NCBI RefSeq assembly: GCF_004216475.1
Contig: NZ_CP022303.1
Coordinates: forward strand, 3,782,001-3,846,000
Direction of reading: 5' to 3'
From: Thalassococcus sp. S3
Lineage (GTDB): Bacteria > Pseudomonadota > Alphaproteobacteria > Rhodobacterales > Rhodobacteraceae
DNA: 64,000 nt
Shown here: positions 49,147 to 64,000 of the stretch, piece after piece
How the letters are laid out: each line of letters starts with the position of its first letter
Position numbering within the stretch: the stretch's first letter is position 1
Notes under the pieces: generated by a model
The model's input: the letters and a program-made list of their open reading frames with translations, nothing else
Told to the model about the DNA's origin: nothing
Databases searched by the model: none
Made by a program: the position numbers and the translations under genes

Positions 49147-49259
49147 TTTTTGTGTATCTTCAAACTGTTGGCGGCGGATGCTGCTACGCTGGAATACGCC
49201 CCAATATCCCCGAATTTGCCCCTTTACGACGACTCATTGCACACACAGCGCACACGAAA

Positions 49260-50964
49260 ATGGCCTCCATTACCAAGCTTCCCTCTGGCGCCTACCGGGT
49301 CCAGATCAGACGAAAGGGCCGCTACGCGAGCGAGACTTTCCTTCGCCGCGACGACGCACATCGCTGGGCCCGCCAGGCGGAGACCCGGGTCGATCAGGGG
49401 CTGGCGCCGAACAAGTCGTCCGTTTCCGGCCTCCAGACCTTTGGCGACCTCATCGACCTTCATATAACCGATATGTGCGAGGTAGGGAAACCGCCGCGTC
49501 GCAGCAAGGCCGCCACGCTCACGACGCTCAAGCGCGATCTCGGGAAGGAGAAGATCGGCCACCTCGACCGGCAGAAGCTGATCGACTACGGCAAGATGCG
49601 CGCGGAGCAAGGTGCGGGTCCGGTGACGCTCGGGATCGACATCGGCGTAGTCAAGATGATCATTACCCATGCGGCGGCTGTACACGGCCTCGACATCTCC
49701 CTAGAGCCCGTCGATCTGGCGCGTGTCGCACTGAAACGGCTTGGCCTCATCGGCAAGGGTACAGAGCGGGATCGACGCCCCAGCACGGACGAGTTGAACC
49801 GCTTGTTCCGCTACTTCAATGACAACAAACGCCTGACGACACCGATGACGCGGATCGTGAGGTTTGCGGTGGCCACGGCCATGCGGCTTGACGAGATCTG
49901 CCGGGTCGAATGGAGCGATCTCGATGTCGATGGCCGCATGCTCCTGATCCGCGACCGCAAGGACCCACGCAACAAGACCGGCAACGACCAGCGGATCCCG
50001 CTCTTCGCCGCCACCGGATTCGACGCCTGGGCGCTGGTCACAGAACAGGCCAGGCATCTGGGTCACACCAACGGGCGGATCTTTCCCTATAAACCCGCAA
50101 CCATCGAGCGGCGTCTTGTGACCCTCAAGTCGTACTATGCTTGGCGCGAGGATCGAAACAGCGCCCTGCCCTCCCCATTCGCCGATGTCCATATCTCGGT
50201 GAGGATTCCGCGCCGCCTGCCGTGTTCAATCGATCGAGATACCCTGAGAGCGGTTCTCCAAACCGATGAAGGTCCAGTCGCTGTGCGGTCGAAGTCGGCC
50301 TCGCAGAACGACGTGACGACCCTGATCATCAAGCTGCTGATCGTCACAGGCCTGCGGATTAGCGAGCTCACAAATCTGAAGGTCCGCGATGTCTCGCCGG
50401 ACGGCGGCCAGATCCTCGTAAACGGCAAGGGCAGCAAGGAGCGAATCGTCTTCGTAACGAACCGGCAGCTGCAGGAGGAGTTTCAACGCTACTGTCAGAT
50501 GCGCTCCGAAAACGGCTCTATTGCAGCGCCGCTGTTCCTCAACACCGTGGGACGTCGGCTCCGCGCCGCCACCTTCCGAAAACGGCTGCGGGAGCTATCT
50601 AAGCGCCTCGGCGTCGAACCCCACCTGACCCCACAGGTTCCGGCACTCGGCCGCAACGCTGCTGATCGAAGAGGGTATCGACATCCGCATGGTCCAGGCA
50701 CTCCTAGGGCATGCAAACCTGAAGACGACGGAAATCTATGTGCGGGTTTCGAACCATGCGCTTAAAAGGGCGCTTGAGCGCGTCGATGTGCTGAGTGAAC
50801 TTCGGCAGTCGGCCCATTCCTGTCGTTGGCCAAGGTGTCAAGACGCTGCGCTCGCAGCCCGCTTTGCGGACTTTCGCCGCACCTGCACGGTCAGTCGCTA
50901 TTCGAAAGCACAATTCGCGGAGCAAACTTGCCGTTCAATTCAGGATGCAGCGTGTCATCCTTGA
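49260..50964 (+). pseudogene. Chimeric, frameshifted tyrosine recombinase
   Basis: From MASITKLPSGAYRVQIRRKG to GRIFPYKPAT (about residue 281) the frame reads like a dusA-type integrase: N-terminal binding domain, SAM-like domain and the first catalytic Arg in TAMRLDEICRVEW. It then runs in frame into the middle of a second recombinase (SYYAWRED, the catalytic Arg of TGLRISELTNL, Lys of GKGSKERIVF). Near 50626-50632 the frame slips, and in the other frame the rest of the second enzyme follows: [25 protein letters not shown] with the Tyr nucleophile, ending about 50814. The protein lacks a complete active site in one frame, so I regard it as dead. Confidence 0.8.
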
Positions 50965-53804: not shown

Positions 53805-54794
53805 ATGCAAAGGAACAGCCAAGAACCGTCCGGTGGTTACGGTGCCCGGCAAAAAAGGGACACTATTGATCTCCCAGACATCGCGGGCATCAGCAATGTC
53901 GATCTGGACTTGAGTGATCCCAACGATGACGGGACAGTCACCGCCGAGATTGATGCGGACAGCGACGGCGGGGCCAATGAGACGGTAGACGTCAAGTTCA
54001 ACGCCAAAGGCGGCACAAAGGTAATCGGTACAGAGGGCGACAATTCCATCACGGGCAGCGATGGAAACGACAGGTTCATCGGATCCGCAGGCGACGACGC
54101 ATATGTCGGTGGTGATGGGGACGACACCATCGACTACTCCGATCTCGACACGCCAATCACCATCAGTTCCGCGGGTGGTCTTGTGAAAGAAGGCCTTGGA
54201 ACCGACACGCTTGGCACATTTGATGTAGAGGCGGGTTTCATCGAAGTGGTCGAAACCGTCATTGGCGATCCAGACGAGCGAAATGTGGTCGATTCGACGT
54301 CAGTTCAGGGCGCGGTGGCCACTGATGTTGATCTGGAGAGCGGCAGCTATGTTGGCAATATCATCACTGACATCGGCGGTTTTTCAGACGGCGATGCCTT
54401 TACGCTGACGCTGAAGAACTTTGTCGACGTGCTGGGCAGCGACAACAATGATGAAATCGCGGGCAGCAGGGTCGCAAACCTGCTGACAGGTGCCGCAGGC
54501 ACAGATTTGATCAACGGTCGCGGCGGAGCGGACACCATCGCGGGTGGGACTGGCAACGATACGCTGAGCGGCGGAGGCGGTGGAGATACCTTTCAATTCG
54601 CATCCGGTGACGGGGCCGATACGATTACTGACTTCGAGATCGGCGTCGACCTTCTGTCATTTAGTGACGTGGAAATGGGCGACATCGTTGCCGAGACGAA
54701 CGGCGGTGACACCATCCTGACCTATGGTGAGGACGCGATTTCGCTGCTTGGTATCGAGACCGACGATGTCTCGAACCTGCTACTTGTGGCCTGA
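53805..54794 (+). CDS. RTX calcium-binding repeat protein
   Basis: This is a 329-residue, strongly acidic protein behind GAAGGAGACC. Two clusters of RTX nonapeptides are present: about 78-110 (GTEGDNSITGSDGND and GGDGDDTIDYSDL) and about 225-272 (NGRGGADTIAGGTGND, then LSGGGGGDTFQF). It ends in the beta-rich C-terminus typical of type I secretion substrates. There is no signal peptide and no catalytic domain between the clusters that I recognise. No type I secretion genes are in the window, so a secretion system elsewhere is presumed. Confidence 0.88.
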   Translation: MQRNSQEPSGGYGARQKRDTIDLPDIAGISNVDLDLSDPNDDGTVTAEIDADSDGGANETVDVKFNAKGGTKVIGTEGDNSITGSDGNDRFIGSAGDDAYVGGDGDDTIDYSDLDTPITISSAGGLVKEGLGTDTLGTFDVEAGFIEVVETVIGDPDERNVVDSTSVQGAVATDVDLESGSYVGNIITDIGGFSDGDAFTLTLKNFVDVLGSDNNDEIAGSRVANLLTGAAGTDLINGRGGADTIAGGTGNDTLSGGGGGDTFQFASGDGADTITDFEIGVDLLSFSDVEMGDIVAETNGGDTILTYGEDAISLLGIETDDVSNLLLVA

Positions 54795-58739: not shown

Positions 58740-59618
58740 TTACTTTCTGGCGGAGATGACGTATTTGCCCGCCCCCGCTCCGCGAAATCCCGCCAAGCAG
58801 GCATCCACCACGTGCCTGACTAGCGCCCTCGGACGCATCTTGTCGTAGCCGATAGACAGGGTCAGCGGTGGCAGCGGATCGGATATGGGACGGGCGACCA
58901 CTTGTGCACCGGAATACGTAGTGTCGGATCGGGGCTGCATGTTCAGGATCGCGCATCCCAGACCAGCGCCAACCAGATTGCGCACCATTTCAGTCGATGT
59001 CGCATAGGCCACGACACGCGCCTCGCGTTCCTGTTTGTCGAACAGGTCGGTGTAGTAGGTTGCAGCAACCGGTCGGTCGAGGACTACGAGCGGCTCGCGG
59101 GCAATCTCTTCCAATCTCATAGCAGCCTGATCCGCCAACGAGTGCTCTGCCGGAAGCAAGCAGTATGACGGCGCCTTGACAAGCACGTCAAAGCCAATGG
59201 CGGGCCGCACGTCCTCGCTGACGAACAGAATGATATCGAAGCAGCCCTCCAACAGCCCCTTCTGAGCGCCGTCGTTGTCACATTCTTCAAGATGAAGATC
59301 GACAGTATTGCTGTCAGGCAAGCATGTCGCGAGTGTGCCCGGCAGAAAGGCCGGCGCGATCGGGGCGTAGTGGCCAATGCGCAAAGTCCCACTGAGAGAT
59401 TGCCGCAAGTCGGCCCCTTCGGCCAGGACGGCATGGTAATCCTCCAGCAGGCGTTCGAGCTTGCGCGCGACTGCGGTCCCGCTTGCCGCTCGCTGAATGC
59501 CCCGCGACTGCTGCCGGGTCACCAAGCTCAGGTCGAATGCCGACTCGAACTGGGCTACCGACCGCCGGCCCCGGAAACCATCGTCCAGATGGACCAAAGG
59601 CCGGTCATGCACTAACAA
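58740..59618 (-). pseudogene. LysR-type regulator lacking its DNA-binding domain
   Basis: The effector-binding half is well preserved (LSGTLRIGHYAPIAPAFLP, ELDVLVKAPSYCLL-like region, GAGLGCAILNMQP). Of the N-terminal domain, however, only the last helix remains (SVAQFESAFDLSLVTR then GIQRAASG). The helix-turn-helix that should precede it is absent. The first residues (VHDRPLVHLDDGFRGRR) are unrelated, and the frame begins right after a stop that ends an IS5-like remnant, with only a TTG start. I read it as a 5' truncated gene. Confidence 0.7.
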
Positions 59619-59994: not shown

Positions 59995-60705
59995 ATGATT
60001 ATAGCTTTGCTCGACGCTTTGCCCGACATCTCCGTCCTACGAAACGCGTTAATTGCGCCGCCTTGGGCAGGTGGTGAAGTGTCGCGGCACGCAACCCAAA
60101 CCGCGCAAACACTTTCTAACGCCTGTCCGGGTGCGCGGATCTTGCCTGTGCCGATCCTTGATTCAAACGGACAGAGCGGTGATATTCGCGCGATGTCGCA
60201 AGCATTTACCTGGCTCGCTGAAAACGCGGAACGCTTCGGGATAAATCTGATCTGCGCGCCGATCTCGGATGGTACAAATAGTATCGATGACAGCGAGTTA
60301 CGTGAGTCTGAGCTTGGCGTAGCAATTTCCAATCTGCGCCAGCGCGGCGTGTTGACAGTTGCTGCTGCGGGCAACGGGTTTCGCTATGGCAGCAGGGCGT
60401 TCTGCCAGGGTATGGGCACACCTGCGATCTTGCGCGAGACAATCAGCGTCGGTGCCGCAAATGGATCTGAACCTGCGCCGCGCAGTCAGCGATTGGCCCT
60501 TTCGGGGCCGTGCCGGACCACATGTTTCGCGCACCCAGCGCCACCCGGGGGCACTAGCGGCGCTGCAGCCCGCGTATCGAGCATGATAGCGGCCAGGATG
60601 ATCAAGGGCGAAAGCGGCGAAGTTGCTCTTGCCGAGCTGTTGCACGGGTCGGCCGAGACCGTTGTAGGCGGGCCAGAAGAGATCTGGCCCGCCCTTTTGG
60701 ACTAA
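59995..60705 (+). CDS. Compact subtilisin-like (S8-type) serine protease
   Basis: This is a 236-residue protein. The order and spacing of catalytic motifs fit family S8: Asp7 in IIALLDALPD, His32 in SRHATQTAQTL, the oxyanion Asn127 in VAAAGNG and Ser188 in GGTSGAAARVS. It is much shorter than typical subtilases, and the Asp lies at the very start, so there is no signal peptide and no propeptide; it would work in the cytoplasm as made. Its stop is 2 bp from the stop of the giant minus-strand gene. The start is supported by GGAAGG. Partner and target are unknown. Confidence 0.75.
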   Translation: MIIALLDALPDISVLRNALIAPPWAGGEVSRHATQTAQTLSNACPGARILPVPILDSNGQSGDIRAMSQAFTWLAENAERFGINLICAPISDGTNSIDDSELRESELGVAISNLRQRGVLTVAAAGNGFRYGSRAFCQGMGTPAILRETISVGAANGSEPAPRSQRLALSGPCRTTCFAHPAPPGGTSGAAARVSSMIAARMIKGESGEVALAELLHGSAETVVGGPEEIWPALLD

Positions 60706-60707
60706 GC

Positions 60708-63700
60708 TTAGTACTGGATCACCTTCTTCGCTGCGGCAAGTTCCAGCGACTTATAGGTCAGCGCCGCTGCTTTGGCGCCACCGGTCACGATCAGTAAACC
60801 GGCTTTAACCTTGGCGGCCTCCATCGGCAGAATGGTGGCAACATTCGAGGTAATTGTGCCGATGGCATCCATGAATGTCGCGGAACCACGGAATCCTTCG
60901 GGTGCCTCCCTTGAGCGGTCGGCTGGGTCTTTTGACTTGCCAATCCGATCCATGATAAATCCGAACGCTACCGCACTGCAGACCAGTGAGACACTCGTCG
61001 TTCCTAGATCTGTCCACGCGTAGAACTTGTGCCCAAATGGGGCATCGCCACCCACGCTTGGTTTCGGGATAGGGCTATCAACCCGCCAGAACACCGACGC
61101 TGCGGCAACCATTGCCGACAGCGTTGACGCAACAACGATGGTCCATTCCAGCGCGGAGACTTCATCTCCTTCGCCATCGTGACGTGTAAACACCGTTGCC
61201 GCCGCGCCGAGTGCAGCGAAGACCGTTATTACGATTGAGCCAAAGGTCGAGGTCGAAAAGTCGTCCTTGAACGATTTGATCGCGAAGTAGCCTGCCGCCG
61301 CCATTTTCAGGCAGGCTGCCCCTATTCCAAGGAAATATTTCGCGTTTTCAAAGAAGGCCGCAAAGTCGTCATCCTGCGCCATTACAGCGCTGATCACCGT
61401 GCGTTTTTCATCGCCTGGTTTGAACGGAGCTTTACCAACGATAAGCTTGTAGGCGATGGTTGCGGGGATCGCTCCAACCAACATAACCGCGTCGATCAAG
61501 CGGAACGACGTGTCGACATGGCTGCCTGGCGCGACCAGTTTGATCAATTTCTCAATAAACGGAAAGCTAATGGAGCTGAACAGAATAGCCCGCAACCCGT
61601 CGATCATTTTAGCTGCAAGTTCAATCGCTTTGATTATCAGAATTTCGACCGCGTTAAGTAGACCGATCGCAGCATCCGCACCGGCAGCTACGACGATCTT
61701 GGCGAATGTATCGAAGCTGAACAGATCGGTAGTTGGCACTTCGTTCCCAACAATCGCATGAACATCGGCTTGAATCTGCGTCCATGTTTCCGTGATGTTA
61801 TCAAGCTCAGATGCAAGAGTTCCGGCTACAAAGCTTTCCAGTTCCTCAAGCAGGTTTGGTGCATATTCAGGCACGTCAATCTGGATGACCTCGTCCATGA
61901 TGTTTCCGAATTGGTCAGTAATCCACCCCATCACCGGGTTCCCAACCGCCTGATCGACCAGACCGTGCAGCGCGTCACCTGCAGATTGGAACATGTCTGC
62001 AAAACTATCACCCTGGGTGACGGGAGGCAGTTCCGTAATCGGGACCCCGAATTCGGCTTTCCAGTCGCGGATCTGGCTTTTGACCGATCCAAAGCCTTTA
62101 GCTACGTGGCTGGCCACACCGGAGATGTTGTCGCGTACGAAGATCAGTGCTTGATCAGTTGCGTTGACCATCACGTCGCGCGCAAGAAGAACGTCGTCCC
62201 AGTTGAAGACGAATTTCAGGAACTCCCATACCTTCTCAAGCGCGACGTTCATCTGCTCCCATAACCAAGTGAAGAAACCGCCGATTTCTTCTAGAGTTTC
62301 CAGAACAAACTTGCGGATCTTGCCGCCGATTTCGCAGATGAATTCCAATGCTTTATCCGTCATGTTGACGACGAACGTCCAGCCATCTTGGATACCTTGC
62401 CAGATGCCTTCGAAGAAGTCGGACAGCGTGTCACCGAGGGCAGCGAACTCATCACCGCCAGTTGCTCGCGCTTTGATCAGACGATCAGCCGTGGCCGTAT
62501 CGGCCATCCCGATACCGCTTGCACCAGAAGTTAGGGCAAAACTTTGGACTGGTAGCTTGGCGGTCTTCAGGCTATTTGAAAAGGCTGTGCCGTTGGTTTC
62601 ACGAACGCCCGGAAGAACCCCGTTGGTCACCTGTTTGGCGAGCGCTGCTATGTGGTTCAACGCAGCAACCATACCTTCGACCTCGCCCTGGCGCGCGCCA
62701 GTTTTGTAGACAGCTGGCAGAAGGTCGCTGGATAACAAGTCCTGTGCCGTCACCGAAGCCAACCGCTCGTGTGCGGTAGCGGCGGGGTTGATATCAATCG
62801 CGTTGTCGTAAGTTTCGATCTCGAACCGGTAGACTGGCGGTGCCAGCGTGCGCACCTTGTCATACAGGTTCACCGCACCATTCGCGTCGGTCGTCGCTTC
62901 CACCTTGACGTTGGGTCCGATGAAAACGCTTTTACCGTTCACCACGACATGTGCCGCCGCCGAGGCCGACACCATGACCTTGCAGCCCATTTGTGGCATG
63001 CCACCACTGTCCATCATGCGCAGGGCAACGCCATAGCAGCTCATCTTCACGACCTCGCTGGGCGCATCGACAAGCACCGGAGCTTCAAGCCACGCCCCGC
63101 TTGCCGCGTCACGGTGCACATGCGCGACCTGACCGTTGGTATAGGTTACAATCATCGCTGTTGTGGTGGCACCATCACCGTAAACCGGCGCAATTCCTTG
63201 CACATCGGCGCGCAGGCGCAGCGGGGTCGATAACGCATCGGCTTCACGTTCAGCACTGTCAGAGCGGACCGTTAAAAGGTTGCCGTCAGTGCCAAGCGCC
63301 CAGACCGAGACCGCGCCGTCAGGGCTTTCTGCAATATTCAGCCGCCGCACTTTGGTCGCAACATCCGCACCCATCAATTCGACAACTTTCGCGTCCTTGT
63401 GGTTGTCCAGCTCTTCAGCGGAAATGACAAAGACGCCCTCACCACTGATATACAGGTCGTGGCCGTCGTTGCGGTTCTGACCGGTCTCAAGCAAGCGCGC
63501 GCCTTTGGGGCATGGCAGCGGCACCACTGGAGGCACGCTTATCGCCTTGCCGTTGTCGTCAAACTCCGGAAACGGGCGGAACGTCAGAACTTCAGCGCCC
63601 GCATTACTGCCAAGCACCGCGATACCGGCGCCAACATAAGGGTCGATCATCGGCTCGAAGTCGTGGATTTCCTGATAGTCGACTGCAGGAGAATACACAT

Positions 63701-64000
63701 AGGCGCGCTTCAATTCTTGTCTTGAATTGCTGCGGATCAGATAGAGCGTATCGACCCGAGATCCGCTGGCATCGACCACTGTTGTCCAGGTGTGATGCTC
63801 ATCTTCTAGGACCCGAAGACCGTGAATTTCAGTATCTGCACGCGTGCCGCAATCGGTCCAAGTGATGTCGTTCCATGCATCGGCCTCGCTGTTAAGATCA
63901 TAGGCAATCAGCAAGCGGTCAGCGCCCTTGGCCTCGCGCGGACCAACGGCAGCGGCTATCGTGATGCGCCCGTCATTGGACCAAGCAGCCGCAATCGCGC
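60708..64000 (-). CDS. Giant protein: beta-propeller-like N-part, helical middle, multi-helix membrane C-part; 5' end outside window
   Basis: The frame is open to the right edge (at least 1097 residues). The visible N-terminal 350 residues show repeated short blade-like patterns (AAAWSNDGRITIAAAVG, ESPDGAVSVWALGTDGNLL) like a propeller. A small beta domain follows (TTDANGAVNLYDKV, about 62880). Then comes a long helical region with Trp-rich amphipathic helices (about 62180-62420, GGFFTWLWEQMN, EKVWEFLKFVFNW), and in the last 350 residues about five hydrophobic helices (LVGAIPATIAYKLI, IVITVFAALGAAATV, WTIVVASTLSAMVAA and others). I do not recognise the family. The layout suggests a membrane-acting protein with a sensor or binding propeller. 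Confidence 0.8.
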   Translation of the reverse strand, partial: AIAAAWSNDGRITIAAAVGPREAKGADRLLIAYDLNSEADAWNDITWTDCGTRADTEIHGLRVLEDEHHTWTTVVDASGSRVDTLYLIRSNSRQELKRAYVYSPAVDYQEIHDFEPMIDPYVGAGIAVLGSNAGAEVLTFRPFPEFDDNGKAISVPPVVPLPCPKGARLLETGQNRNDGHDLYISGEGVFVISAEELDNHKDAKVVELMGADVATKVRRLNIAESPDGAVSVWALGTDGNLLTVRSDSAEREADALSTPLRLRADVQGIAPVYGDGATTTAMIVTYTNGQVAHVHRDAASGAWLEAPVLVDAPSEVVKMSCYGVALRMMDSGGMPQMGCKVMVSASAAAHVVVNGKSVFIGPNVKVEATTDANGAVNLYDKVRTLAPPVYRFEIETYDNAIDINPAATAHERLASVTAQDLLSSDLLPAVYKTGARQGEVEGMVAALNHIAALAKQVTNGVLPGVRETNGTAFSNSLKTAKLPVQSFALTSGASGIGMADTATADRLIKARATGGDEFAALGDTLSDFFEGIWQGIQDGWTFVVNMTDKALEFICEIGGKIRKFVLETLEEIGGFFTWLWEQMNVALEKVWEFLKFVFNWDDVLLARDVMVNATDQALIFVRDNISGVASHVAKGFGSVKSQIRDWKAEFGVPITELPPVTQGDSFADMFQSAGDALHGLVDQAVGNPVMGWITDQFGNIMDEVIQIDVPEYAPNLLEELESFVAGTLASELDNITETWTQIQADVHAIVGNEVPTTDLFSFDTFAKIVVAAGADAAIGLLNAVEILIIKAIELAAKMIDGLRAILFSSISFPFIEKLIKLVAPGSHVDTSFRLIDAVMLVGAIPATIAYKLIVGKAPFKPGDEKRTVISAVMAQDDDFAAFFENAKYFLGIGAACLKMAAAGYFAIKSFKDDFSTSTFGSIVITVFAALGAAATVFTRHDGEGDEVSALEWTIVVASTLSAMVAAASVFWRVDSPIPKPSVGGDAPFGHKFYAWTDLGTTSVSLVCSAVAFGFIMDRIGKSKDPADRSREAPEGFRGSATFMDAIGTITSNVATILPMEAAKVKAGLLIVTGGAKAAALTYKSLELAAAKKVIQY

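Follow-up and report, generated by a model that had tools for sequence, protein, structure and literature searches.

Known systems that come close to the locus considered here include the following. The fungal gasdermin HET-Q1 is cleaved by the S8 protease HET-Q2, the product of a neighboring gene, which takes approximately 5 kDa off its C-terminus (excerpts of PMC10989679 and PMC12881547). QhpE is described as an intracellular, single-turnover processing protease (excerpt of PMC7876137). The P47/OrfX genes adjoin toxin genes, and the role of the encoded proteins is called unknown there (excerpt of PMC7020563). The locus that we describe lies partly in a 64,000-nucleotide stretch of the 5.0 Mb genome of the α-proteobacterium Thalassococcus sp. 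S3 (C1:3782001-3846000), hereafter the window. It consists of a gene for a compact S8 (subtilisin-like) protease, a gene for a giant protein of 1210 residues and a gene for a 531-residue protein modeled with a TULIP fold. The original prediction, made from the letters of the window alone, proposed the protease and the giant protein as a two-part system and invoked gasdermin-protease pairs as its precedent. That precedent is real, as HET-Q1 and HET-Q2 attest, and the adjacency on which the proposal depended is conserved, although the number of parts has to be revised: the TULIP-fold protein encoded upstream of the giant is a third and more constant partner. The best reading of the evidence is that the S8 protease and the giant protein are a dedicated functional pair.

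We compared 43 loci bearing a giant gene, 15 with close homologs (more than 1000 bits) and 28 with remote homologs (57-695 bits). Nine genome loci came from Leptolyngbya, three Paenibacillus, Richelia, Bradyrhizobium, Fischerella, Moorena and Calothrix, two were on plasmids of Methylocystis and Stanieria, and the rest were from genome surveys; the search for giant proteins scored the best 7995 candidates by shared words. The locus counts are not independent, because some of the loci are closely related to one another (L008/L088, L089/L090, L091-L094, L058/L059 and L098/L099). L053, L057 and L066, all remote, are situated at the ends of contigs, and a small giant fragment (G311:C52) was left out of the comparison. 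All 15 close loci, which span three phyla, possess a gene of the compact S8 subfamily no more than 4 kb from the giant gene. In 12 loci the S8 gene follows the giant gene in a tail-to-tail arrangement (gap -4 to 1108 bp); in L007 and L050 it is divergent and situated upstream of the TULIP gene, and in L087 it is upstream on the same strand. The TULIP gene is directly upstream of the giant gene and on the same strand in every one of the 15 (gap -4 to 176 bp). No further neighbor family is shared by a majority of the compared loci. Sequence distances among the 15 loci are correlated between giant and S8 (Spearman 0.775) and between giant and TULIP protein (0.812), values that none of 2000 permutations reached in either case, and more loosely between TULIP protein and S8 (0.511, 13 of 2000 permutations).

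Every genome in which our surveys detected the S8 subfamily also encodes a close giant. Of 295 genomes sampled from the family to which Paenibacillus glycinis belongs, 10 encode a giant, which is close in 5, and the S8 subfamily is present in those same 5. The order of the Bradyrhizobium genome (397 genomes) has a giant in 6, a close one in 2 and the S8 subfamily in those same 2; the Thalassococcus genome with 60 relatives has a giant in 2, a close one in 1 and the S8 subfamily in that same genome. When all candidates were scored in 22 giant-bearing genomes, the subfamily was present in exactly the 5 with a close giant and lacking in the other 17. The subfamily threshold in the 295-genome survey was E up to 1e-30. 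The surveys scored the best 8 (295 genomes), the best 6 (397 genomes) or up to 43 S8 candidates per genome (61 genomes), so that lone S8 genes have possibly been missed in the first two, where only 8 and 6 were scored; in 388 genomes of the cyanobacterial class, S8 was sought only in the giant-bearing ones. There is one subfamily match per genome in the 295-, 397- and 22-genome surveys, and the Thalassococcus genome has one copy of the giant gene, one gene of the compact S8 subfamily and three further S8 genes by Pfam profile. Among 72,556 plasmid records, one encodes the TULIP protein, a full-length-type giant and the S8 protease together; the other plasmid giant match (Stanieria) is remote, and the other plasmid S8 match is a 381-residue enzyme in a different setting. 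Taken together, conserved adjacency and co-occurrence indicate that the pairing of S8 and giant is not due to chance. As a separate observation, matching sizes of 9344, 24790 and 7101 suggest that S8 occurs with a giant or TULIP protein on three further metagenome contigs (P0002/P0036, P0003/P0038/P0047 and P0041/P0078).

The TULIP gene reaches further than the protease gene. It is present in 8 of the 28 remote loci: the profile detects it in 7 (as no more than a 214-residue piece in L015), and similarity to another member reveals it in 1 (L022). Among the loci compared, the compact S8 was found in the close ones only. It looks, therefore, as though TULIP protein and giant are the old core and the compact S8 an addition of one clade. 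Two remote giants (L060 and L064) are associated with a canonical S8 of another type, encoded on the same strand and overlapping the end of the giant gene by 8 and 4 bp, and it seems that a second, different subtilase joined the giant separately. These two loci span L060:6300-11703 and L064:7581-12928. The Calothrix locus (L015:7527-12226) combines a short TULIP open reading frame (ORF) with a giant whose match falls chiefly in the back half, lacks an S8, and is perhaps a decaying or rearranged copy.

The protease gene occupies positions 59995-60705 of the window on the plus strand and encodes 236 residues. The protein scores 33.7 bits with the Pfam Peptidase_S8 profile (PF00082; cut-off 21.8), at an E-value of 3.1e-8 and over positions 74-251 of the 288 in the profile. 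The Asp-His-Asn-Ser set expected of an S8 domain is present, as the original prediction had it, and each of its residues is identical in 15/15 aligned orthologs: the catalytic Asp7 (codon 60013-60015), His32 (60088-60090) and Ser188 (60556-60558) and the oxyanion Asn127 (60373-60375), all on the plus strand. The N-terminus of the protein is itself the strand bearing the catalytic Asp; neither a signal sequence nor a propeptide is visible, in agreement with the earlier reading, on inspection by eye and without a signal predictor. When five S8 relatives were scanned with NCBIfam, three scored highest with QhpE (26-55 bits) and two, including the Thalassococcus protein, with mycosin; all five were far below the QhpE and mycosin cut-offs (165 and 278.75). 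Membership of the Thalassococcus enzyme in either family is accordingly rejected (QhpE, NF049966, 32.2 bits; type VII mycosin, TIGR03921, 35.1 bits).

The giant gene is on the opposite strand and ends with a stop codon at 60708-60710, 2 bp from the stop of the protease gene, so the tail-to-tail arrangement stands as first described. Positions 60708-64000 (minus strand) encode residues 114-1210 and the stop, and the gene runs 340 bases past the end of the window, which truncates it; the complete ORF (L005:2708-6340, minus strand) encodes 1210 residues, consistent with the earlier minimum of 1097 residues. A propeller head, recognized in the original prediction from repeats, is modeled in a homolog (P0025, residues 43-427) and extends by alignment to about residue 430 of the Thalassococcus protein (63051-64000, its first part being outside the window). 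It is followed in the homolog model by a putative β-rich domain of about residues 431-520 (62781-63050, likewise placed by alignment). The Trp-rich amphipathic stretch noticed earlier, at about residues 641-770 (62031-62420), is conserved in the alignment (51% mean pairwise identity, 15 loci), as is a hydrophobic segment at about residues 921-977 (61410-61580, 57%). The tail that follows (residues 978-1210, 60711-61409) is hydrophobic and hypervariable, with only 25% mean pairwise identity over the 15 loci, and is a candidate protease site. At a threshold of 1.2, the last 230 residues or so contain five hydrophobic peaks in the Thalassococcus protein and three to six in each of the 15 loci; at a stricter threshold of 1.6, the whole protein has six and the close members zero to seven. 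These counts make the several C-terminal membrane helices of the original prediction plausible rather than proven.

The fold of the modeled propeller resembles the PLL/PHL lectins, a class marked by seven blades and pockets for sugar, but ties with WD40 propellers. The fold match lists for the homolog are filled by the propeller, and the absence of gasdermin from them is no evidence either way. The Thalassococcus giant has no convincing Pfam or NCBIfam match, the best Pfam match over 41 giant members is no better than E 0.0015, and the family profile retrieves among PDB chains, at best, a 49-residue match to 3ufi (E 0.0051). Scanning 19 remote giants and the Thalassococcus protein for heads at E ≤0.01 identified LamG in 9/20, β-γ-crystallin in 7/20 and fascin in 2/20. 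Judged by these domain matches, the remote giants exchange heads (LamG, crystallin), and such a range of surface-binding heads on a common helical body would fit proteins that adhere to other cells or attack them. Just upstream of the LamG-headed remote giants of L054, L055, L058 and L059, on the same strand, there is a second large ORF (964-1079 residues) with a similar start, a tandem relative.

The 531-residue protein is encoded 69 bp upstream of the giant gene on the same strand, outside the window (L005:6410-8005, minus strand). Its model has a two-domain TULIP fold, nearest to the P47/OrfX type, and the protein is presumably lipid-binding. It has no convincing Pfam or NCBIfam match; no Pfam match better than E 0.079 was obtained over 11 members of the family, the Pfam P47 model does not match these 11 or 6 remote TULIP proteins up to E 1, and the best match of the family profile among PDB chains has an E-value of 0.17. 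In three proteins of the TULIP family (P0069, P0076 and P0084), precomputed Pfam labels mark an additional domain of crystallin or fascin-like type.

We propose, tentatively and with somewhat less than even confidence, that the trio is a mobile, protease-controlled, membrane-acting module in which the S8 protease processes the giant. In this proposal, the TULIP protein and the giant would form a membrane-acting, toxin-like complex; the head of the giant would target a surface, and the helical half would insert by means of the Trp-rich stretch and the hydrophobic tail. The dedicated intracellular S8, made mostly from the opposite strand, would trim the giant, likeliest near the hypervariable hydrophobic tail, leading to maturation or release. 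The template for the trimming step is the C-terminal cut of about 5 kDa that HET-Q2 makes in HET-Q1. The giant would thus be the substrate, cutting would activate it, and the activated form would act on membranes. A bolder version, which we consider doubtful, is a new type of protease-gated membrane attack. Here the giant would be a pore former with a lectin head, loaded or chaperoned by the P47/OrfX-fold TULIP protein, and would stay locked until a dedicated subtilase took off its hypervariable hydrophobic tail; subtilases would have been recruited to the superfamily on two or more occasions.

Several points weigh against the proposal of a protease-controlled module. Cleavage, membrane action and toxicity of the giant are all steps that we infer. 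The back half of the giant is helical, amphipathic and hydrophobic and is modeled with low confidence, and no known pore former is among the fold matches listed for this low-confidence model. By profile, 26/28 remote giants have no S8 neighbor, and the giant therefore need not have one. Giants regularly without a nearby S8 gene, which the original prediction had named as counterevidence, are thus the rule in the remote superfamily but are not found among close giants (0/15). For one S8 homolog, P0044 of Brucella sp. BE17, the matches of the giant search, with its best 7995 candidates scored, include no giant counterpart, and this homolog may be an exception to the pairing. The motif context of the Thalassococcus protease is unusual at two catalytic sites, with HATQ in place of the prevalent HGT and DALP in place of the prevalent D-S/T-G; because the His and Asp contexts depart from the usual, activity of the enzyme is probable rather than certain. 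Finally, trees of the trio proteins (15 loci) mix phyla, suggesting that the trio has spread horizontally as a unit, and transfer as a conserved unit would give co-occurrence without any protease-substrate relation.

The alternative that survives best, although we regard it as unlikely, is a QhpE-like maturation, in which the S8 protease removes a segment of the giant or of the TULIP protein inside the cell for export or insertion, and the resulting complex is harmless, with a task in lipid transfer or at the surface. Of the five S8 relatives, three have QhpE as their best NCBIfam model, albeit far under cut-off; QhpE is an intracellular processing protease (excerpt of PMC7876137), and TULIP folds are known from lipid-binding proteins. 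The same scores, however, fail QhpE membership, many remote giants manage without an S8, and the S8 gene is mostly on the opposite strand and hence not cotranscribed with its supposed substrate. That opposite orientation can be turned in favor of an antidote or quality-control role, since S8 can then be made separately from the giant, which it would destroy or disarm in the producing cell. The retention of S8 with the giant in 15/15 close loci and the single subfamily match per genome in the surveys would suit such a role, but nothing points to degradation, the 26 remote giants are without an S8 neighbor, and we judge the role improbable. Least probable of all is that the genes are merely comobile and that S8 has another substrate: the patchy, phylum-mixing distribution and the lower G+C content of the giant (0.560) and TULIP (0.525) genes relative to the window (0.614) would fit, but all three genes are kept in 15/15 loci, S8 even in the 3 where gene order differs, and no other neighbor family accompanies all or most of the loci.

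The original prediction placed protease and giant in a dusA-linked island, and an integrase gene beside dusA is indeed present in the window. An island including the trio is not upheld: few exact 13-mers of the int-dusA region recur in the remainder of 78 kb, with no convincing att pair, and the far end was not found, an empty site not having been looked for. The integrase ORF beside dusA (49152-50765) ends unlike an integrase, and an ORF in another frame (50689-50964) reads as an integrase tail, so the gene looks broken. Divergent from the protease gene is a LysR-type ORF (58740-59618, minus strand) with a match to the substrate domain only and none to a DNA-binding domain, which may be truncated or have had its start missed; further away, a 329-residue protein (53805-54794, plus strand) has four RTX calcium-binding repeat matches. 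A phage origin is rejected, as none of the 153 pattern-matching stretches of viral_contigs encodes a relative and 50,697 phage records gave no match; viral structure matches look like generic propellers. Also rejected is a conserved small peptide substrate: short-ORF matches were confined to loci of the Paenibacillus group, many of them mutually overlapping on both strands like shadows of larger genes. A promoter and terminator scan gave nothing above shuffles.

A role of the trio in defense found no support in the scan made. PADLOC gave no match for the trio proteins at E up to 0.01, in a scan that covered the trio and three further neighbors or neighbor-like genes rather than all neighbors, and no tie of the trio itself to defense emerged from it. 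Weak or generic defense-like neighbor matches occur in single loci only (Avs4-like in L012, class III cyclase in L016). The canonical S8 proteins of L060 and L064 match the PADLOC 'subtilase' model with 77.7 and 101 bits.

The comparison with known systems can now be drawn. The likeness to HET-Q1/HET-Q2 is that an S8 gene neighbors one for a putative membrane-acting protein, and the adjoining of protease and effector genes that marks gasdermin-protease pairs is seen in 15/15 close loci within 4 kb. C-terminal cleavage controls the effector in the fungal system; in the trio, cleavage of the giant is only inferred. The giant differs from HET-Q1 in its size of about 1200 residues, its propeller head and its TULIP partner, and no gasdermin fold is in the match lists, an absence that is uninformative. 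QhpE, which acts in quinohemoprotein amine dehydrogenase processing, is alike in being a small intracellular S8 without propeptide, but the Thalassococcus protein reaches only 32.2 of the 165 bits demanded, and QhpE has other neighbors. Compared with P47, OrfX2 and OrfX3 of the orfX-p47 clusters, the TULIP protein has 8-12% identity and no Pfam P47 match, and the whole-chain root-mean-square deviation is 12-15 Å by Foldseek and 6-7 Å by a second aligner, values so high that the two TULIP domains must be set differently. The content of the trio, one TULIP protein with one giant and an S8 protease, is also unlike that of those clusters, and the PLL/PHL/CV39L propeller lectins are named as close to the giant head by fold.

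We found no prior description of the trio in the open literature searched. The giant and its 531-residue partner are nearly without Pfam matches, yet different phyla have retained the two together. Soil bacteria and cyanobacteria in which a P47-fold protein is tied to a single constant giant and a single dedicated protease would offer a setting where the role of P47/OrfX could be tested without recourse to a dangerous pathogen. If S8 does gate the giant, it would represent a further bacterial way of coupling proteolysis to membrane damage; if the protease-gated attack were true, the trio would be a bacterial analog of HET-Q1/HET-Q2 assembled from unrelated parts, and partnering membrane-active giants would become a general role of P47/OrfX-type proteins. 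The single parts resemble known kinds, namely S8 processing enzymes, P47/OrfX-fold proteins and propeller lectins, but their combination does not, and there is a real chance that the trio is a new kind of system.

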